From positions 1-64,000 of the forward strand of contig NZ_MAGO01000008.1 in assembly GCF_001687335.1 (NCBI RefSeq): a stretch of 64,000 nt of DNA, in the 5' to 3' direction. This stretch comes from Dissulfuribacter thermophilus (lineage in GTDB: Bacteria; Desulfobacterota; Dissulfuribacteria; Dissulfuribacterales; Dissulfuribacteraceae). Under the pieces are notes generated by a model. That model had not been told where the DNA came from. It saw nothing but the letters and a program-made list of their open reading frames with translations, and did no database searches. The translations under genes and the position numbers were made by a program. This document shows, piece by piece, positions 29,851-36,203 of this stretch; position 1 is the first letter of the stretch, and each line of letters opens with the position of its first letter.

Positions 29851-32232
29851 TTATTTAAAGTATGAGTCCGAGTGGTATCTTTCTATATACTTCATACAGT
29901 CTTCTTTTGGAATGGGCTTTGAGAAAAAATAACCCTGTACCTCATCTACTCCAAATTTGTCTAGACATTCCAATTGTTCTCTGGTTTCAACTCCTTCTGC
30001 CACGGTTTTTTTACCCAGGTTTTTAGCAAGAGCTATTATGGCCTTTATAATTTCAACGTCATCCCTATTGTCTGGAAGGCCTCTTACAAAAGACATGTCT
30101 ATCTTGAGGTGAGATGCGGGTATTTTCTTTAAATAGGAAAGAGATGAATATCCGGTTCCAAAATCATCGATAGAAATATTGAAACCAAAGTCATTGAGTA
30201 CTTTAAGTTTATTTAAGGAATCTTCAATATCTGTCATTAGGGCACTTTCTGTGACCTCTATCCGTAACCTCTTGGGGTCGACACCTTTTTTTTGTACTAT
30301 GTCTATCAGCATTTTTTCAAACCCCTTTTGCTTGAACTGTTCAGGGGACACATTAAATGAGATGCCTATCTCCTCTCTATCACAGAATTCATTCTTTGAA
30401 ATGTAGTGGCACACCTGTTCAACTACCCATTTTCCAACCTCAATAATGAGCCCCGTTTCTTCAAGTACGGGTATGAACTCAAATGGGGCAATTATGCCAC
30501 GATCTGGATGCACCCACCTTATTAGGGCCTCGACCCCACGAATTCCTCGAGTTTCTAGACTAATATGTGGCTGAAAATACAATATAAATTGATTTTCTTT
30601 AATTGCATTTCTTAAATCTTTTTCCATATTTAAAAGGGATGAGACCCTCTCAAATATCTCCTTTGAATAAAACTTTAAACTACCAGGTCCTTCATTCTTT
30701 GCCTCTTTCAAGGCAATACTCGCGCAATTCATAAGCTCTGATCCATCTTCTGCATCGTCGGGGTAAATTGCACATCCAATGGAAAAACTCAAGCTAACCT
30801 CATCTCCATTTATCCTAATGGAGTGCTCAAATATCTTTCTAAGCTCACCAATTATGGTCTCAATCTTTTTATAGGTGGCATAATATATTATACTGAATTC
30901 GTCAGGACCGGTCCTACATACCTCACCTCCATCTTCTATGACTTGATTCAACTTCTTTGAAATCTTCTTAATAATTTGATCTCCTAAATTATATCCAAGG
31001 GCGTGATTTATGTTTCCAAAATTGTCGATATCAAGGGACAATACAAGAAACTTTTCACCTTTCTTTCTGGCAATATTTACCTGAGCATTCAAAAGATTCA
31101 TAAAATAGTTGAGATTTCCAAGTCCTGTAAGTTCATCAGTAAAGAGTACCTTTTCTGCCAGTTTCTTTTTTTCTATATATTGTAAGGACAAAGAAAGATC
31201 GTCTGTCACCTCTTCCAAAAGATTTATTTCTGCGTCGGAAAAGAACGCCCATTTTTTAGAATAGAGCAAGATAGCCCCTATTGGGTGTTCATCTACTTTT
31301 AGGGGCAAACTTATCATGGATCGAAAGCCATATCTGCTCGCCCGTTCCCTCCAGGGTATATATTTCTGATTTTTTAAGATGTCGTTTACTACAACTACTC
31401 TTCCCTCTCTCAAAGAGATCCCGCCTGGACCGCAACCTTCTGGAACATTGGGATCAGTGGATACGACAAGCCCGTCTAAATACTCTTTTTTCCCAGCTGC
31501 AGCCACTGGGACCAGTAGATTTTTTTTGGCATCGTGTACCCCAATCCATACAAGGTCAAATCCACCCAGGTCTTTTAGAATCTTACTTGCATCTTTAAAA
31601 AGGCATTCCCTGTCCTTAGCTCGAACTATAAGAGAATTGATCTCACTTAACATCCAGTAAATCCAATTTAATCTCTCTAAGTCTTTTTGAGCATTTAACA
31701 GCCTGTTTTCCCTTAGGAAAAAATATGAATATAAAATTGTTATTAAATCCAAAAATATAATCTTCAATAGAGATCTTATTATGGATAGAGCCAATTCTTT
31801 ATCTGCCATTTCAGACTGAATATGCTCAATTATCATAGAACAATATGTGCTGAATGCCCCGAAAAATTCCACTGGAGCAATTCCTTTACGATAATGACAG
31901 ATCCCTATCCTAGATCTGTTTAACAGATATTCCTTGTCATATTTGCCAGAGATTAATTGTTTTAAATATTCCGATTGGTGATGTTTCAACAGGGTAAGAC
32001 CATTCTGTCCATCAATAATTTTTTTTATATCCTTAAACTTCATAAGATTTGAATACAGCCTTTCCCAAAAATCAGGAGGTAGATCGTCTTTCATTCTATT
32101 CCTCAACAGCGCTATATTATCTAAATCGTCTTGGGTTAGACAAACGTACTTCTTGATTTCATCTACCTTTCTTTGGTCAAAGCCCATTTCATTTGCCATG
32201 TCCCTAAAAAATTTTTCTACATCCACTTTCAT
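29851..32232 (-). CDS. Protoglobin-GAF-GGDEF-EAL cyclic di-GMP protein
   Basis: A 793-residue sensor. Residues 1-160 match globin-coupled sensor (protoglobin) domains, with His 113 in RIGICHYRKG as likely proximal heme ligand. A GAF domain follows (about 195-365), then a GGDEF domain whose signature reads RTGPDEF, i.e. GPDEF instead of GGDEF, and an EAL domain with EALIRW, TESALM, DDFGTGYSSL and VAEGVET. I therefore expect a heme-based O2, CO or NO sensor with phosphodiesterase activity and a weak or silent cyclase. Start at ATG 32232: GGAGG stands 8 bp upstream; a TTG at 32247 overlaps that site. It is divergent from the cooA genes. Confidence 0.88.
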   Translation of the reverse strand: MKVDVEKFFRDMANEMGFDQRKVDEIKKYVCLTQDDLDNIALLRNRMKDDLPPDFWERLYSNLMKFKDIKKIIDGQNGLTLLKHHQSEYLKQLISGKYDKEYLLNRSRIGICHYRKGIAPVEFFGAFSTYCSMIIEHIQSEMADKELALSIIRSLLKIIFLDLITILYSYFFLRENRLLNAQKDLERLNWIYWMLSEINSLIVRAKDRECLFKDASKILKDLGGFDLVWIGVHDAKKNLLVPVAAAGKKEYLDGLVVSTDPNVPEGCGPGGISLREGRVVVVNDILKNQKYIPWRERASRYGFRSMISLPLKVDEHPIGAILLYSKKWAFFSDAEINLLEEVTDDLSLSLQYIEKKKLAEKVLFTDELTGLGNLNYFMNLLNAQVNIARKKGEKFLVLSLDIDNFGNINHALGYNLGDQIIKKISKKLNQVIEDGGEVCRTGPDEFSIIYYATYKKIETIIGELRKIFEHSIRINGDEVSLSFSIGCAIYPDDAEDGSELMNCASIALKEAKNEGPGSLKFYSKEIFERVSSLLNMEKDLRNAIKENQFILYFQPHISLETRGIRGVEALIRWVHPDRGIIAPFEFIPVLEETGLIIEVGKWVVEQVCHYISKNEFCDREEIGISFNVSPEQFKQKGFEKMLIDIVQKKGVDPKRLRIEVTESALMTDIEDSLNKLKVLNDFGFNISIDDFGTGYSSLSYLKKIPASHLKIDMSFVRGLPDNRDDVEIIKAIIALAKNLGKKTVAEGVETREQLECLDKFGVDEVQGYFFSKPIPKEDCMKYIERYHSDSYFK

Positions 32233-32694
32233 TATCTCTTCCTCCAATTTTTTCTAACCATAACAATTTTTTATAAACACCATTGAGCATAAAATTAATT
32301 AGCACTTTAAATTTTTTATTTTTTTATATAAATTAATTTGAGACTATTTTAAACTTTTTTTAAAATAAATAAAGTTTACATTTTATCTTCTTCGATTTAA
32401 CTTCAGATTATTAAATGATAGGGCTTTAACACAGGGAAAAATACTTAGCCCAAAATAAAAAACGATATTGGGTCGTTACTCTTTCTAATTTCCTAGAATC
32501 GATGGATATCATCATGAATTGCCTAGCAGCTTAACCTGGCGAGATGTTCTCAATTGTGATCACGCTTAAAAAACAAGACTAGTCAAATCATCAATTACTA
32601 TAATTATTCTAACATTAAAGTGCATTAATTGACTAGACCTATTTGAGATGCTAGCCTGTCCCTTGCAAGGATCTACTGTCAGCATGGTGCCAGG
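32233..32694. promoter_or_regulatory. Intergenic region upstream of cooA1
   Basis: 460 bp, very AT-rich at the left. A palindromic CRP-like core tTGTGATCACg lies at 32555-32564. At 32677-32692, ending 2 bp before the cooA1 ATG, TGTCA-GCATGG-TGCCA resembles the TGTCA-N6-TGACA sites downstream with one mismatch. The last 30 bp are partly duplicated upstream of cooA2. No strong Shine-Dalgarno sequence precedes cooA1. Confidence 0.45.
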
Positions 32695-33351
32695 ATGAAA
32701 AAAAAATTTTCCACAATAAATTTATTAGATGAGCTATGCCGTAGTGAATATGCTCAAATCTGCCAAGAATTTAGCGAAATAAATTATAGCAAGGGGCAAC
32801 TAATCTATACTCCTGGTCACAGTGATGACCTCATTTTTATAGTTAAAAAGGGAAAAGTCAGGATTTATCTCGCATTGGAAGATAAAGAATTCTCCCTTGC
32901 AATCCTAGAACCCGGAGACATATATTCGACCCATACTAGAGCATACGTGGAGGCTGTGGAAGATGTGACACTGCTTACCATGCCAACAGAAAAATTTCAC
33001 CTCTACATTGCCACCCATTCTGCACTCTCTAGGACCATTATCAGTGTATTAGGTGAACTACTCAAACAATCCTTCTCAATTATTGAAAATCTCGTCTTCA
33101 ACGACATTTCAGGTAGGCTTATCAATTTCCTTCTACAGGAAGCAAAAGATAGTGGACAGGTTACTGATGAAGGCGTTATTCTAAATCTTGACTTGACTAT
33201 GGAACAACTGGCTGCTATTATTTGTACTTCGCGTCAAACAGTCTCCACCATTATTAATTCTATGCAACGCGCTAATGTTTTACAGAAAAAAAACCGTGGC
33301 GTCTTTCTAATTCCCGATCTGGATAGGCTCAAAAATTTCTCCACATTTTAA
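32695..33351 (+). CDS. cooA: CooA-type CO-sensing heme transcription activator (paralogue 1)
   Basis: A 218-residue CRP/FNR-family protein. The run KGQLIYTPG, VRIYLALEDKEFSLAILEPGDIYSTHTRA closely follows CooA of Carboxydothermus, and His 80 falls at the known heme-ligand position (His 77 in Rhodospirillum CooA). The Fe(III) ligand Cys of classic CooA is Ser 78 here. The long C helix (about 110-135) precedes a winged helix with SRQTVST (about 180-186) as recognition helix. CO binding should allow DNA binding and activation. cooA2 and cooS follow on the same strand. An intrinsic terminator that is also a candidate operator comes 31 bp after the stop. Confidence 0.85.
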   Translation: MKKKFSTINLLDELCRSEYAQICQEFSEINYSKGQLIYTPGHSDDLIFIVKKGKVRIYLALEDKEFSLAILEPGDIYSTHTRAYVEAVEDVTLLTMPTEKFHLYIATHSALSRTIISVLGELLKQSFSIIENLVFNDISGRLINFLLQEAKDSGQVTDEGVILNLDLTMEQLAAIICTSRQTVSTIINSMQRANVLQKKNRGVFLIPDLDRLKNFSTF

Positions 33352-33382
33352 GTAGTTCCCTCAAATTCTCCAAAAAAATGAT

Positions 33383-33413
33383 AGACTGTCAGCTATCTGA
33401 CAGTCTTTTATTT
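33383..33413 (+). promoter_or_regulatory. TGTCA-N6-TGACA palindrome (candidate CooA site, also terminator) before cooA2
   Basis: agacTGTCA-GCTATC-TGACAgtct gives a perfect 10-bp stem with loop CTAT, followed by ttttattt. The 5-6-5 half-site geometry equals known CooA/CRP-family operators. It can therefore end cooA1 transcripts and also act as an operator for cooA2, whose ATG is about 120 bp downstream. The same core is repeated before cooS. Confidence 0.65.
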
Positions 33414-33523
33414 CCATTATAACTACCATCCGATCGTAATTGGAATAGGTCCTCTATCCACATCCTTTAATTGTTAGTTGATATCACGACGATGCAGCGA
33501 CCTACTATCATTATGGTGTTCAA

Positions 33524-34180
33524 ATGAGGAAAAAATTTTCCACAATCAATATACTAGATGAAATATGCAGTAGTAATTTCGACCAAATCTGTCAAAATTT
33601 TAGTGAAATAAACTATAGTAAGGGACAACTGATTTATGATCTGGACCATAATGAAGACCTCATTTTTATCGTAAAAAAAGGAAAAATCAGGATTTATCTC
33701 GCCTTGGAAGATAAAGAATTCTCCCTTGCAATCCTAGAACCCGGAGACATATATTCGACCCATACTAGGGCATACGTGGAGGCTGTGGAAGATGTGACAC
33801 TGCTTACCATGCCCACAGAAAAATTTCACCTCTACATTGCCACCCATTCCGCACTCTCTAGGACCATTATAAGTGTACTAGGGGAACTACTCAAACAATC
33901 CTTCTCAATTATTGAAAATCTAGTCTTCAATGACATCTCAGGTAGGCTTATTAACTTTTTTCTACAAGAAGCAAGGGAAAGCGGACAGGTTACAGATGAG
34001 GGAATTATTCTAAATCTTGACTTGACTATGGAACAACTCGCCACTATAGTTAGTGCTTCACGTCAGACTGTTTCGACTATTGTAAATTCCATGCAGCGTG
34101 CTAATATCTTACAAAAACAAAGACGCGGCGTCTTTCTAATTCCCGATCTGGATAGACTCAAAAATTTCTCCACATTTTAA
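33524..34180 (+). CDS. cooA: CooA-type CO-sensing heme transcription activator (paralogue 2)
   Basis: A 218-residue paralogue of the preceding protein. From residue 44 to 147 the two are nearly identical, including His 80 in GDIYSTHTRA and the same Ser 78. They differ most in the first 43 residues, which could change heme-ligand or dimer behaviour, and slightly around the recognition helix (SASRQTVSTIVN versus CTSRQTVSTIIN), where the SRQTVST core is the same. The flanking DNA on both sides is also duplicated, so the unit arose by tandem duplication including the putative operator. cooS starts about 145 bp after its stop. Confidence 0.85.
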   Translation: MRKKFSTINILDEICSSNFDQICQNFSEINYSKGQLIYDLDHNEDLIFIVKKGKIRIYLALEDKEFSLAILEPGDIYSTHTRAYVEAVEDVTLLTMPTEKFHLYIATHSALSRTIISVLGELLKQSFSIIENLVFNDISGRLINFFLQEARESGQVTDEGIILNLDLTMEQLATIVSASRQTVSTIVNSMQRANILQKQRRGVFLIPDLDRLKNFSTF

Positions 34181-34211
34181 GTACTTGTCATAAATCCTCC
34201 CAAAAAGTGAT

Positions 34212-34241
34212 AAACTGTCAGCTATCTGACAGTTTTTTATT
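34212..34241 (+). promoter_or_regulatory. TGTCA-N6-TGACA palindrome (candidate CooA site, also terminator) before cooS
   Basis: aaacTGTCA-GCTATC-TGACAgttt with T6 after it. The core is identical to the one at 33387-33402. One outer base pair changes from G-C to A-T on both arms, preserving the stem. The site is centred at about 34223, some 60 bp before the start expected from the TATAAT at 34270, the position of a class I activator site. Confidence 0.65.
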
Positions 34242-34269
34242 TTCCTTATCACTATCATTTCATTATAAC

Positions 34270-34275
34270 TATAAT
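34270..34275 (+). promoter_or_regulatory. Candidate -10 element for cooS
   Basis: A perfect TATAAT lies 51 bp before the cooS start. The -35 position (tatcac) is poor, as expected for an activator-dependent promoter. The GGAGG ribosome-binding site follows at about 34312. Confidence 0.45.
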
Positions 34276-34325
34276 AAGACTAGGGCCCTTACCCTTATCT
34301 TATAAAAAATAGGAGGAGAGTTTTT

Positions 34326-36203
34326 ATGGCGGGAAAAGAATTAAATATTGAAGAATTGTCCATTTGGGAAGATGCGAAGCAAATGCTTCTAAAGGCAAAA
34401 AACGATGGCGTCGAAACGGCCTGGGACCGTTTACAGCAACAGGCCCCTCATTGTAAATTTGGAGAAAGTGGTGTTTGCTGTCGAATTTGTACAATGGGCC
34501 CATGTCGAGTCAGTAAAAAGGCACCCAGAGGGGTGTGTGGTGCTGATGCAGACGTTATCGTAGCCAGAAATTTTGGCCGTTTTATTGCCGGTGGTGCTGC
34601 CGGACACTCAGACCACGGCCGTGACTGTATCGAGGCACTTCATGCCGTTGCCCACGGTGAGACAAAGGACTACACCATTAAAGACGCAGAAAAACTGATG
34701 CGCATAGCAAAAGAGGTCGGCATTGAAACAGAAGGCCGTGAACCACTTGAGGTGGCTAAAGATCTGGCTGCAGACTTTTTTGAAAACTATGGAACCACCA
34801 AAGGTGAAGTTTCTTTTATTGTAAGGGTACCTGAAAAAAGGCGTAAGATCTGGGATAAACTTGGCATAACTCCACGCGGTGTCGACCGCGAAATTGCTGA
34901 GATGATGCATCGCACCCACATGGGTTGTGACAATGATGCTGCCAATACTGTACTACACGCGGCCCGTACCTCCCTTGCTGATGGATGGGCTGGATCAATG
35001 ATCGCAACCGAAGTCTCTGATATCCTATTTGGCACTCCTACCCCCAACAAAACTCAAGTGAATCTTGGAGTCCTAAAAGAAGATCATGTTAACATCTTGG
35101 TCCACGGACATAATCCCATCGTATCCGAAAAAATAATGGAAGCAGTAAATGACCCAGAGCTCATCGCTCTGGCTAAGGAAAAAGGTGCTAAAGGCATCAA
35201 TCTCGCTGGTCTCTGCTGCACTGGCAATGAGTTGATGATGCGCCATGGAATACCCATGGCAGGTAATCACCTGATGACCGAATTGGCCATCGTTACCGGT
35301 GCAGTAGAACTCATTGTAGTGGATTATCAGTGCATTATGCCAAGCTTGGTCCAGGTCGGCTCCTGTTATCATACCAAAATGGTGACAACTGCTGACAAGG
35401 CACGTTTCACTGGTGCCGAACACATCAAATTTGAAATACACAATGGCATGGAACAGGCCAAAAAGGTAGTCCGCATGGCAATTGAACGATTCCCTCTACG
35501 CGACCCGGCACGCGTGAAGATTCCTAATGGTCCTGTAGAAGTCGTAACCGGTTTTTCAAATGAAGCCCTTTTAGATGCCCTTGGCGGTTCTCTAACCCCA
35601 CTGATTGATGCAATAAAGGCTGGAAAGATAAGAGGTGCTGTGGCCATCGTTGGATGCAATAATCCAAAATACAAACATGATTATTGCAACCTGAATCTGG
35701 CCAAAGAGCTTATAAAGAGAGATATTTTAGTAATCGTCACTGGTTGTGTAACAGTGGCCGCAGGGAAAGCTGGTTTACTTGTTCCCGATGCTATTGATCA
35801 GGCAGGTCCTGGACTAAAAGAAATTTGTGGGGCCTTAGGCATTCCTCCAGTCATTCATATGGGTAGCTGCGTAGATAACGCCCGTATACTCCAGCTCTGC
35901 GCACTAATTGCCGACGAACTCGGAGTAGATATTTCTGATCTTCCTGTAGCTGCTTCATCACCAGAATGGTATTCAGAAAAGGCCGCAGCTATTGGTACCT
36001 ATGCTGTGGCATCAGGTATTTATACCCACCTTGGACATCCGCCAAACATAACTGGTTCCGAAGTAGTTACCAATCTGGCCCTTTCAGGTCTTGATGAACT
36101 CGTCGGAGCCTGCTTCCTAATTGAACCCGATCCCTTTAAGGCAGCAGAACTCATTGATGAGAGGATCAAAAGTAAACGTTTAGCATTAGGACTAAGTGCC
36201 TAA
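34326..36203 (+). CDS. cooS: Ni-dependent anaerobic CO dehydrogenase catalytic subunit
   Basis: A 625-residue CODH. The N-terminal Cys series (C43, C51, C52, C55, C60, C71 in HCKFGESGVCCRIC...GPC...GVC) builds the D- and B-clusters. C-cluster ligands are visible in VHGHNP, GLCCTGNE, VDYQCIMP, IVGCNNPK, VTGCVTVA and MGSCVDNAR. It oxidises CO to CO2 (or the reverse) and passes electrons to a ferredoxin. Intact length for a monofunctional CooS. No cooF, cooC or hydrogenase genes follow; their partners must be elsewhere. Strong GGAGG at the start. Regulation by CO through the two upstream CooA proteins is inferred from position and operator. Confidence 0.95.
   Translation: MAGKELNIEELSIWEDAKQMLLKAKNDGVETAWDRLQQQAPHCKFGESGVCCRICTMGPCRVSKKAPRGVCGADADVIVARNFGRFIAGGAAGHSDHGRDCIEALHAVAHGETKDYTIKDAEKLMRIAKEVGIETEGREPLEVAKDLAADFFENYGTTKGEVSFIVRVPEKRRKIWDKLGITPRGVDREIAEMMHRTHMGCDNDAANTVLHAARTSLADGWAGSMIATEVSDILFGTPTPNKTQVNLGVLKEDHVNILVHGHNPIVSEKIMEAVNDPELIALAKEKGAKGINLAGLCCTGNELMMRHGIPMAGNHLMTELAIVTGAVELIVVDYQCIMPSLVQVGSCYHTKMVTTADKARFTGAEHIKFEIHNGMEQAKKVVRMAIERFPLRDPARVKIPNGPVEVVTGFSNEALLDALGGSLTPLIDAIKAGKIRGAVAIVGCNNPKYKHDYCNLNLAKELIKRDILVIVTGCVTVAAGKAGLLVPDAIDQAGPGLKEICGALGIPPVIHMGSCVDNARILQLCALIADELGVDISDLPVAASSPEWYSEKAAAIGTYAVASGIYTHLGHPPNITGSEVVTNLALSGLDELVGACFLIEPDPFKAAELIDERIKSKRLALGLSA

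Follow-up and report, generated by a model that had tools for sequence, protein, structure and literature searches.

Why should a single carbon monoxide (CO) dehydrogenase gene stand behind two consecutive genes for the CO-sensing regulator CooA, each followed by the same palindrome? This arrangement is found in the genome of Dissulfuribacter thermophilus, within a stretch of 64,000 nucleotides (the whole stretch of DNA that was analysed, called the window below), where the open reading frames and both 16-mers lie as the initial annotation had described them, in the order cooA1, palindrome, cooA2, palindrome, cooS (Table 1). The answer that we favour, with a probability of roughly 70%, is that a tandem duplication would have produced a CO-triggered positive autoregulation together with a feed-forward onto the CO dehydrogenase.

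Table 1. Features of the cooA1-cooA2-cooS locus, with positions in the window. D is a d'Aubenton-Carafa-type score, for which the usual terminator threshold is above 0.
Feature	Position	Strand	Description
cooA1	32695-33351	+	218 aa; CO-sensing CRP-family regulator; phmmer to 2FMY CooA-1, E 1.9e-55
Terminator-like hairpin 1	33383-33413	+	T tract; overlaps operator 1; z -5.9; D +14.1
Predicted CooA operator 1 (before cooA2)	33387-33402	+	TGTCAGCTATCTGACA; comparison with 57 intergenic regions, class II spacing
Candidate cooA2 -10	33424-33429	+	TACCAT; 29.5 nt from operator 1 centre
cooA2	33524-34180	+	218 aa; second CooA, own predicted CooA operator upstream; phmmer to 2FMY, E 4.2e-49
Terminator-like hairpin 2	34212-34243	+	T tract; overlaps operator 2; z -5.8; D +22.4
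Predicted CooA operator 2 (before cooS)	34216-34231	+	Same 16-mer, TGTCAGCTATCTGACA; comparison with 57 intergenic regions
Candidate cooS -10	34253-34258	+	TATCAT; 29.5 nt from operator 2 centre; same hexamer and register in locus L015
cooS	34326-36203	+	625 aa; monofunctional Ni-CO dehydrogenase, Desulfovibrio vulgaris type; TIGR01702 E 3.1e-219, PDB 6vwy E 2.5e-273

The proposed identity of the two regulators is borne out by alignment with solved CooA proteins. Besides the matches to 2FMY (CooA-1 of Carboxydothermus), 1FT9 (CooA of R. rubrum) matches the cooA1 product with an E-value of 4e-32 and the cooA2 product with one of 2.6e-34, and the best non-CooA match of the cooA1 product (E 2.6e-17) falls far below the CooA matches; by full-length homology both proteins are CooA-like, above other CRP-family proteins. 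The axial heme ligand His80 (R. rubrum His77) is present in both paralogues, as in 69 of 69 CooA homologues, while the position equivalent to R. rubrum Cys75 is Ser in both and Cys in one of the 69. The recognition helix is intact in the two proteins, including the RQT and following Ser that are invariant among homologues. In R. rubrum CooA the N-terminal arm gives a heme ligand (PMC9670170); the N-termini of CooA1 and CooA2 are similar in length to it, and residue 2 is Lys or Arg (Pro2 in R. rubrum, Lys in close relatives).

Membership of CooS in its family was judged by a family score over the cut-off together with conserved C-cluster motifs: it scores 729 bits against TIGR01702 (cut-off 478), and HGHNP, LCCTGNE, YQCIMPS, GCNNPK, TGCVT and MGSCVDN are the same in the 6vwy alignment. 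The PDB entries closest to CooS are structures of the Desulfovibrio vulgaris enzyme. The D-cluster region reads FGESGVCC in the window and in L015, FGELGTCC in 6vwy, and FCELGTTC in L060 and PDB 6b6v; judging from these motifs, the D-cluster type possibly differs between CooS clades. Unlike the Desulfovibrio cooA-cooSC arrangement, the window has no cooC adjacent to cooS, but a distant cooC-like gene (41% identity) is found on contig C11 of the host genome, so that CooS maturation need not rely on neighbouring genes. A second cooS-like gene (G000:C4:18239-20083, L026), next to folD- and formate-tetrahydrofolate-ligase-like genes, probably belongs to the Wood-Ljungdahl pathway. The gene adjacent to the locus (29851-32247, minus strand), which is not beside cooA in L015, encodes a protoglobin-GAF-GGDEF-EAL protein, possibly a globin-coupled, gas-sensing c-di-GMP enzyme.

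The function of the palindromes is less obvious than their position. TGTCAGCTATCTGACA follows each cooA, starting about 36 nt past the stop codon, and forms the core of a hairpin whose ten-pair stem is preceded by an A tract and followed by a T tract, so that a terminator copied with its gene is the obvious first reading. Taken to its end, this would make the palindromes rho-independent terminators only, duplicated with cooA and with no operator role, and both the scores (+14 and +22) and the single stem pair at which the two hairpin copies differ, a compensatory G-C to A-T change, are in its favour. It was nevertheless rejected, and is in our estimate scarcely credible, because relatives carry the site without T tracts: in about 50 of them it is kept, mostly without a T tract, at a fixed promoter register, and neither L056, with the exact reverse complement of the 16-mer, nor L069 and L109, with the same 16-mer, is terminator-like.

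More specifically, CooA loci were sampled within the host's phylum (two close ones, with many more from about 1,500 genomes searched). Of the 57 distinct intergenic regions that separate cooA from cooS in relatives, 52 contain TGTCR-N6-YGACA, against 0.05 expected from shuffled sequence; four of the five regions without an exact site still hold a near match. The centre of the site typically lies 90-125 nt 5' of the cooS start. The relatives' consensus is in line with the CooA box published for Desulfovibrio, TGTCGGCnnGCCGACA (PMC545781), and in the cooA-cooSC loci of Desulfovibrio vulgaris and D. desulfuricans a CooA operator with nearly the same 16-bp box likewise stands before a D. vulgaris-type cooS (PMC545781). 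Since the site is kept in relatives, mostly without the T tract, both palindromes are identified from sequence as CooA operators, as had been suggested. Each would also be the stem of a predicted intrinsic terminator of the preceding cooA, a combination that is rare among relatives, most of which lack the T tract after the operator: L016 scores 0.0 as a terminator and the other operators scored, those of Desulfovibrio included, are negative, whereas both window operators are positive. In L121, the operator lies inside a much longer palindrome with 14-pair arms and without a T tract. Loci L074, L078, L079, L083, L091 and L093, of the G402 class (presumably Desulfovibrionia), have a conserved small opposite-strand reading frame (MAKHxDIKGALDFxRQGYS...) between cooA and cooS.

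With zero mismatches, TGTCRGCNNNCYGACA occurs in the 2.52-Mb genome at these two operator positions only, and the CooA regulon is therefore probably this locus alone. Searches of the host genome with up to two mismatches gave 38 and 37 matches, which resemble the 33 and 42 of a reversed-pattern control and leave a wider regulon unsupported; around the genome's other cooS cluster, on contig C4, no site exceeded chance. An imperfect operator-like stretch in which one half-site is good, TGTCAGCATGGTGCCA (32677-32692), stops two bases short of the cooA1 ATG and could be an autorepression site, or a chance occurrence.

The operators also stand in a recurrent position relative to candidate promoters. 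Among -10-type hexamers in 51 relatives, 25 of 51 strict matches begin 29.5 nt from the operator centre, with 0-6 at other distances, counts that overstate the evidence somewhat, the relatives being non-independent. The hexamer of the relatives reads TAnnnT (first T in 49/51, second A in 48/51, last T in 40/51). This register puts the operator at about -41.5, overlapping the -35 region, which is the class II position of CRP-type activators. Both window candidates share the register, and hexamers that score as high make up about 2% (TACCAT) and 1% (TATCAT) of those in the intergenic regions of the locus. The layout of a class II CooA-activated promoter, with a predicted start site, is thus supported for cooA2 as well as for cooS; to this extent the earlier idea that CooA drives both genes stands, without its separate CO levels (see below). 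Only 4/6 positions of TACCAT agree with the sigma-70 consensus, and no clear Shine-Dalgarno sequence was found in the cooA2 start region. The cooS leader also contains a perfect TATAAT (34270-34275) with a -35-like TTATCA at 34246, so that some CooA-independent cooS transcription is possible.

How an operator came to precede a cooA gene can be read from the repeat itself. The tandem unit measures 829 bp and comprises cooA and its downstream operator, with homology that sets in some 25 nt ahead of the ATG and continues for about 60-80 nt beyond the stop codon. In 71 loci, the 300 nt upstream of the (first) cooA, which in the window is cooA1, never contain a CooA site; the cooA2 operator therefore arose through the duplication, which, given an operator 3' of cooA, would have set a class II CooA promoter before the second copy. 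An assembly artefact is unlikely, with 85 of 654 bases different between the copies, a contig of 136 kb and a genome that is 99.97% complete. Paired cooA genes, which related genomes had been thought worth searching for, were found adjacent in no other genome among about 175 CooA-bearing ones, and no second cooA is hidden in the long cooA-cooS gaps of some relatives, which hold other small reading frames. That most genomes carry one cooA agrees with our survey: no genome of the G371 class (presumably Desulfobulbia) has more than one CooA match, and where G402-class genomes have two or three, as nine do, the matches are widely separated or on other contigs. The Desulfovibrionia relatives examined have one cooA per locus, against two in the window.

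In a tree without Carboxydothermus CooA-2, cooA1 and cooA2 are sisters (support 100/100) within a G371-class clade, cooA1 having a branch length of 0. The only close CooA elsewhere in the window's order, in genome G011, groups with G402-class loci, and the two genomes of the same family have no CooA. It is probable that the locus came from a Desulfobulbia-like donor and underwent duplication afterwards.

CooA1 and CooA2 are 88% identical, but their differences are unevenly spread: residues 45-145 differ once (V55I) and the remainder 25 times, at 13 positions in residues 1-44 and 12 in residues 146-200, while over the last 18 codons the DNA is again nearly identical. The initial annotation was thus right about the near-identical middle and the diverged N-termini, and incomplete in that residues 146-200 diverge too. 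Third-position differences amount to 41% in codons 1-44, 15% in 45-145, 42% in 146-200 and 12% in 201-217, and a block so poor in differences has p about 1e-4 in a permutation test. Since the deficit extends to synonymous sites, gene conversion is likelier than protein constraint alone to have homogenised the heme domain (residues 45-145).

This result bears on what the second regulator is for. In Carboxydothermus hydrogenoformans, CooA-1 and CooA-2 differ in CO sensitivity (Techtmann 2011, as related in PMC6557876; corrigendum PMC6041983), so that two-CooA genomes and a division of labour by CO threshold are already published; by the same secondary account, both proteins share binding to coo promoters. 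A two-tier sensor had been proposed, in which CooA1 and CooA2 perhaps answer different CO concentrations; in its favour are this precedent and 13 differences in residues 1-44, a stretch that contains the heme-ligand arm. However, the heme-pocket region retains one conservative difference after conversion, and the pair is a recent lineage-specific duplication, not an old diverged one. The Carboxydothermus proteins are described in that account as phylogenetically distinct groups, whereas the window paralogues are tandem, with a near-identical heme domain, and fall together as sisters, not as two separate CooA groups, in the tree without CooA-2. Different CO thresholds are accordingly unlikely, the CO-sensing domain being essentially the same in both, and we consider a two-tier sensor distinctly improbable.

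The near-identical heme domain argues instead for positive autoregulation or dosage. Were the duplication a matter of dosage or neutral, the second operator would be an inert hitchhiker and cooA2 would either add regulator or drift; at 16 of 19 informative sites it is indeed cooA1 that agrees with the relatives, so that most amino-acid changes are in cooA2, whose -10 is also weak. Yet dN/dS is about 0.12 in the diverged parts and the key residues are intact, by which measure both copies are under purifying selection, and the operator 16-mer is identical and the -10 stays in the conserved register despite the divergence around it; we hold the dosage or neutral reading to be unlikely. CooA2 has changed chiefly in its N-terminal arm, in loop 39-44 and in the turn (174-178) that leads into the recognition helix, an asymmetry that could point to a diverged role, such as a heterodimer partner tempering CooA1 or a response to a ligand other than CO; but the heme domain and the recognition-helix core (179-186) are the same in both, and we hold such a role to be very unlikely.

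For the favoured reading, positive autoregulation with feed-forward, we infer the following course. An ancestral Desulfobulbia-type cooA-operator-cooS would have become cooA1-operator-cooA2-operator-cooS through the 829-bp duplication. With cooA1 expressed at a basal level independent of CooA, CO on the CooA1 heme would bring about binding of both operators at -41.5 and recruitment of RNA polymerase, and CooA2 and CooS would be made. CooA2 may then occupy these operators too, as a homodimer or a heterodimer, and reinforce cooA2 and cooS; the outcome would be a positive autoregulation triggered by CO and a coherent feed-forward onto the CO dehydrogenase. Since each operator is also the predicted terminator of the cooA in front of it, little read-through is expected, and initiation driven by CooA should dominate.

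That CO should induce a cooA gene is no novelty: such induction has been reported in D. vulgaris and C. pertinax, though not in C. maritimus (PMC7306483). The cooA-cooS6 locus of Calderihabitans maritimus likewise has cooA directly 5' of cooS and a TGTC-N8-GACA before the CO-induced cooS (PMC7306483). Its cooA is single, against two in the window, and as it is not CO-induced (PMC7306483), autoregulation is unnecessary for function. We put forward only tentatively, and with some doubt, the fuller proposal that one duplication made the feedback and feed-forward circuit, that the operators double as terminators, where bound CooA could alter termination, and that conversion keeps the sensing domains identical.

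The terminator stems, the duplication of the whole unit, the gene conversion and the published CooA-1/CooA-2 thresholds had all been overlooked in the initial annotation; what is new here is (i) the tandem cooA copy, (ii) the operator duplicated alongside it and (iii) the predicted overlap of operator and terminator. A class II CooA promoter is thereby defined over about 50 genomes of the host's phylum, so that predictions of start sites and of CO induction can readily be tested. In the loci examined, the cooA of relatives is never under its own operator, whereas the cooA2 copy now would be, a natural case in which the topology of a circuit may have been changed by one duplication event.
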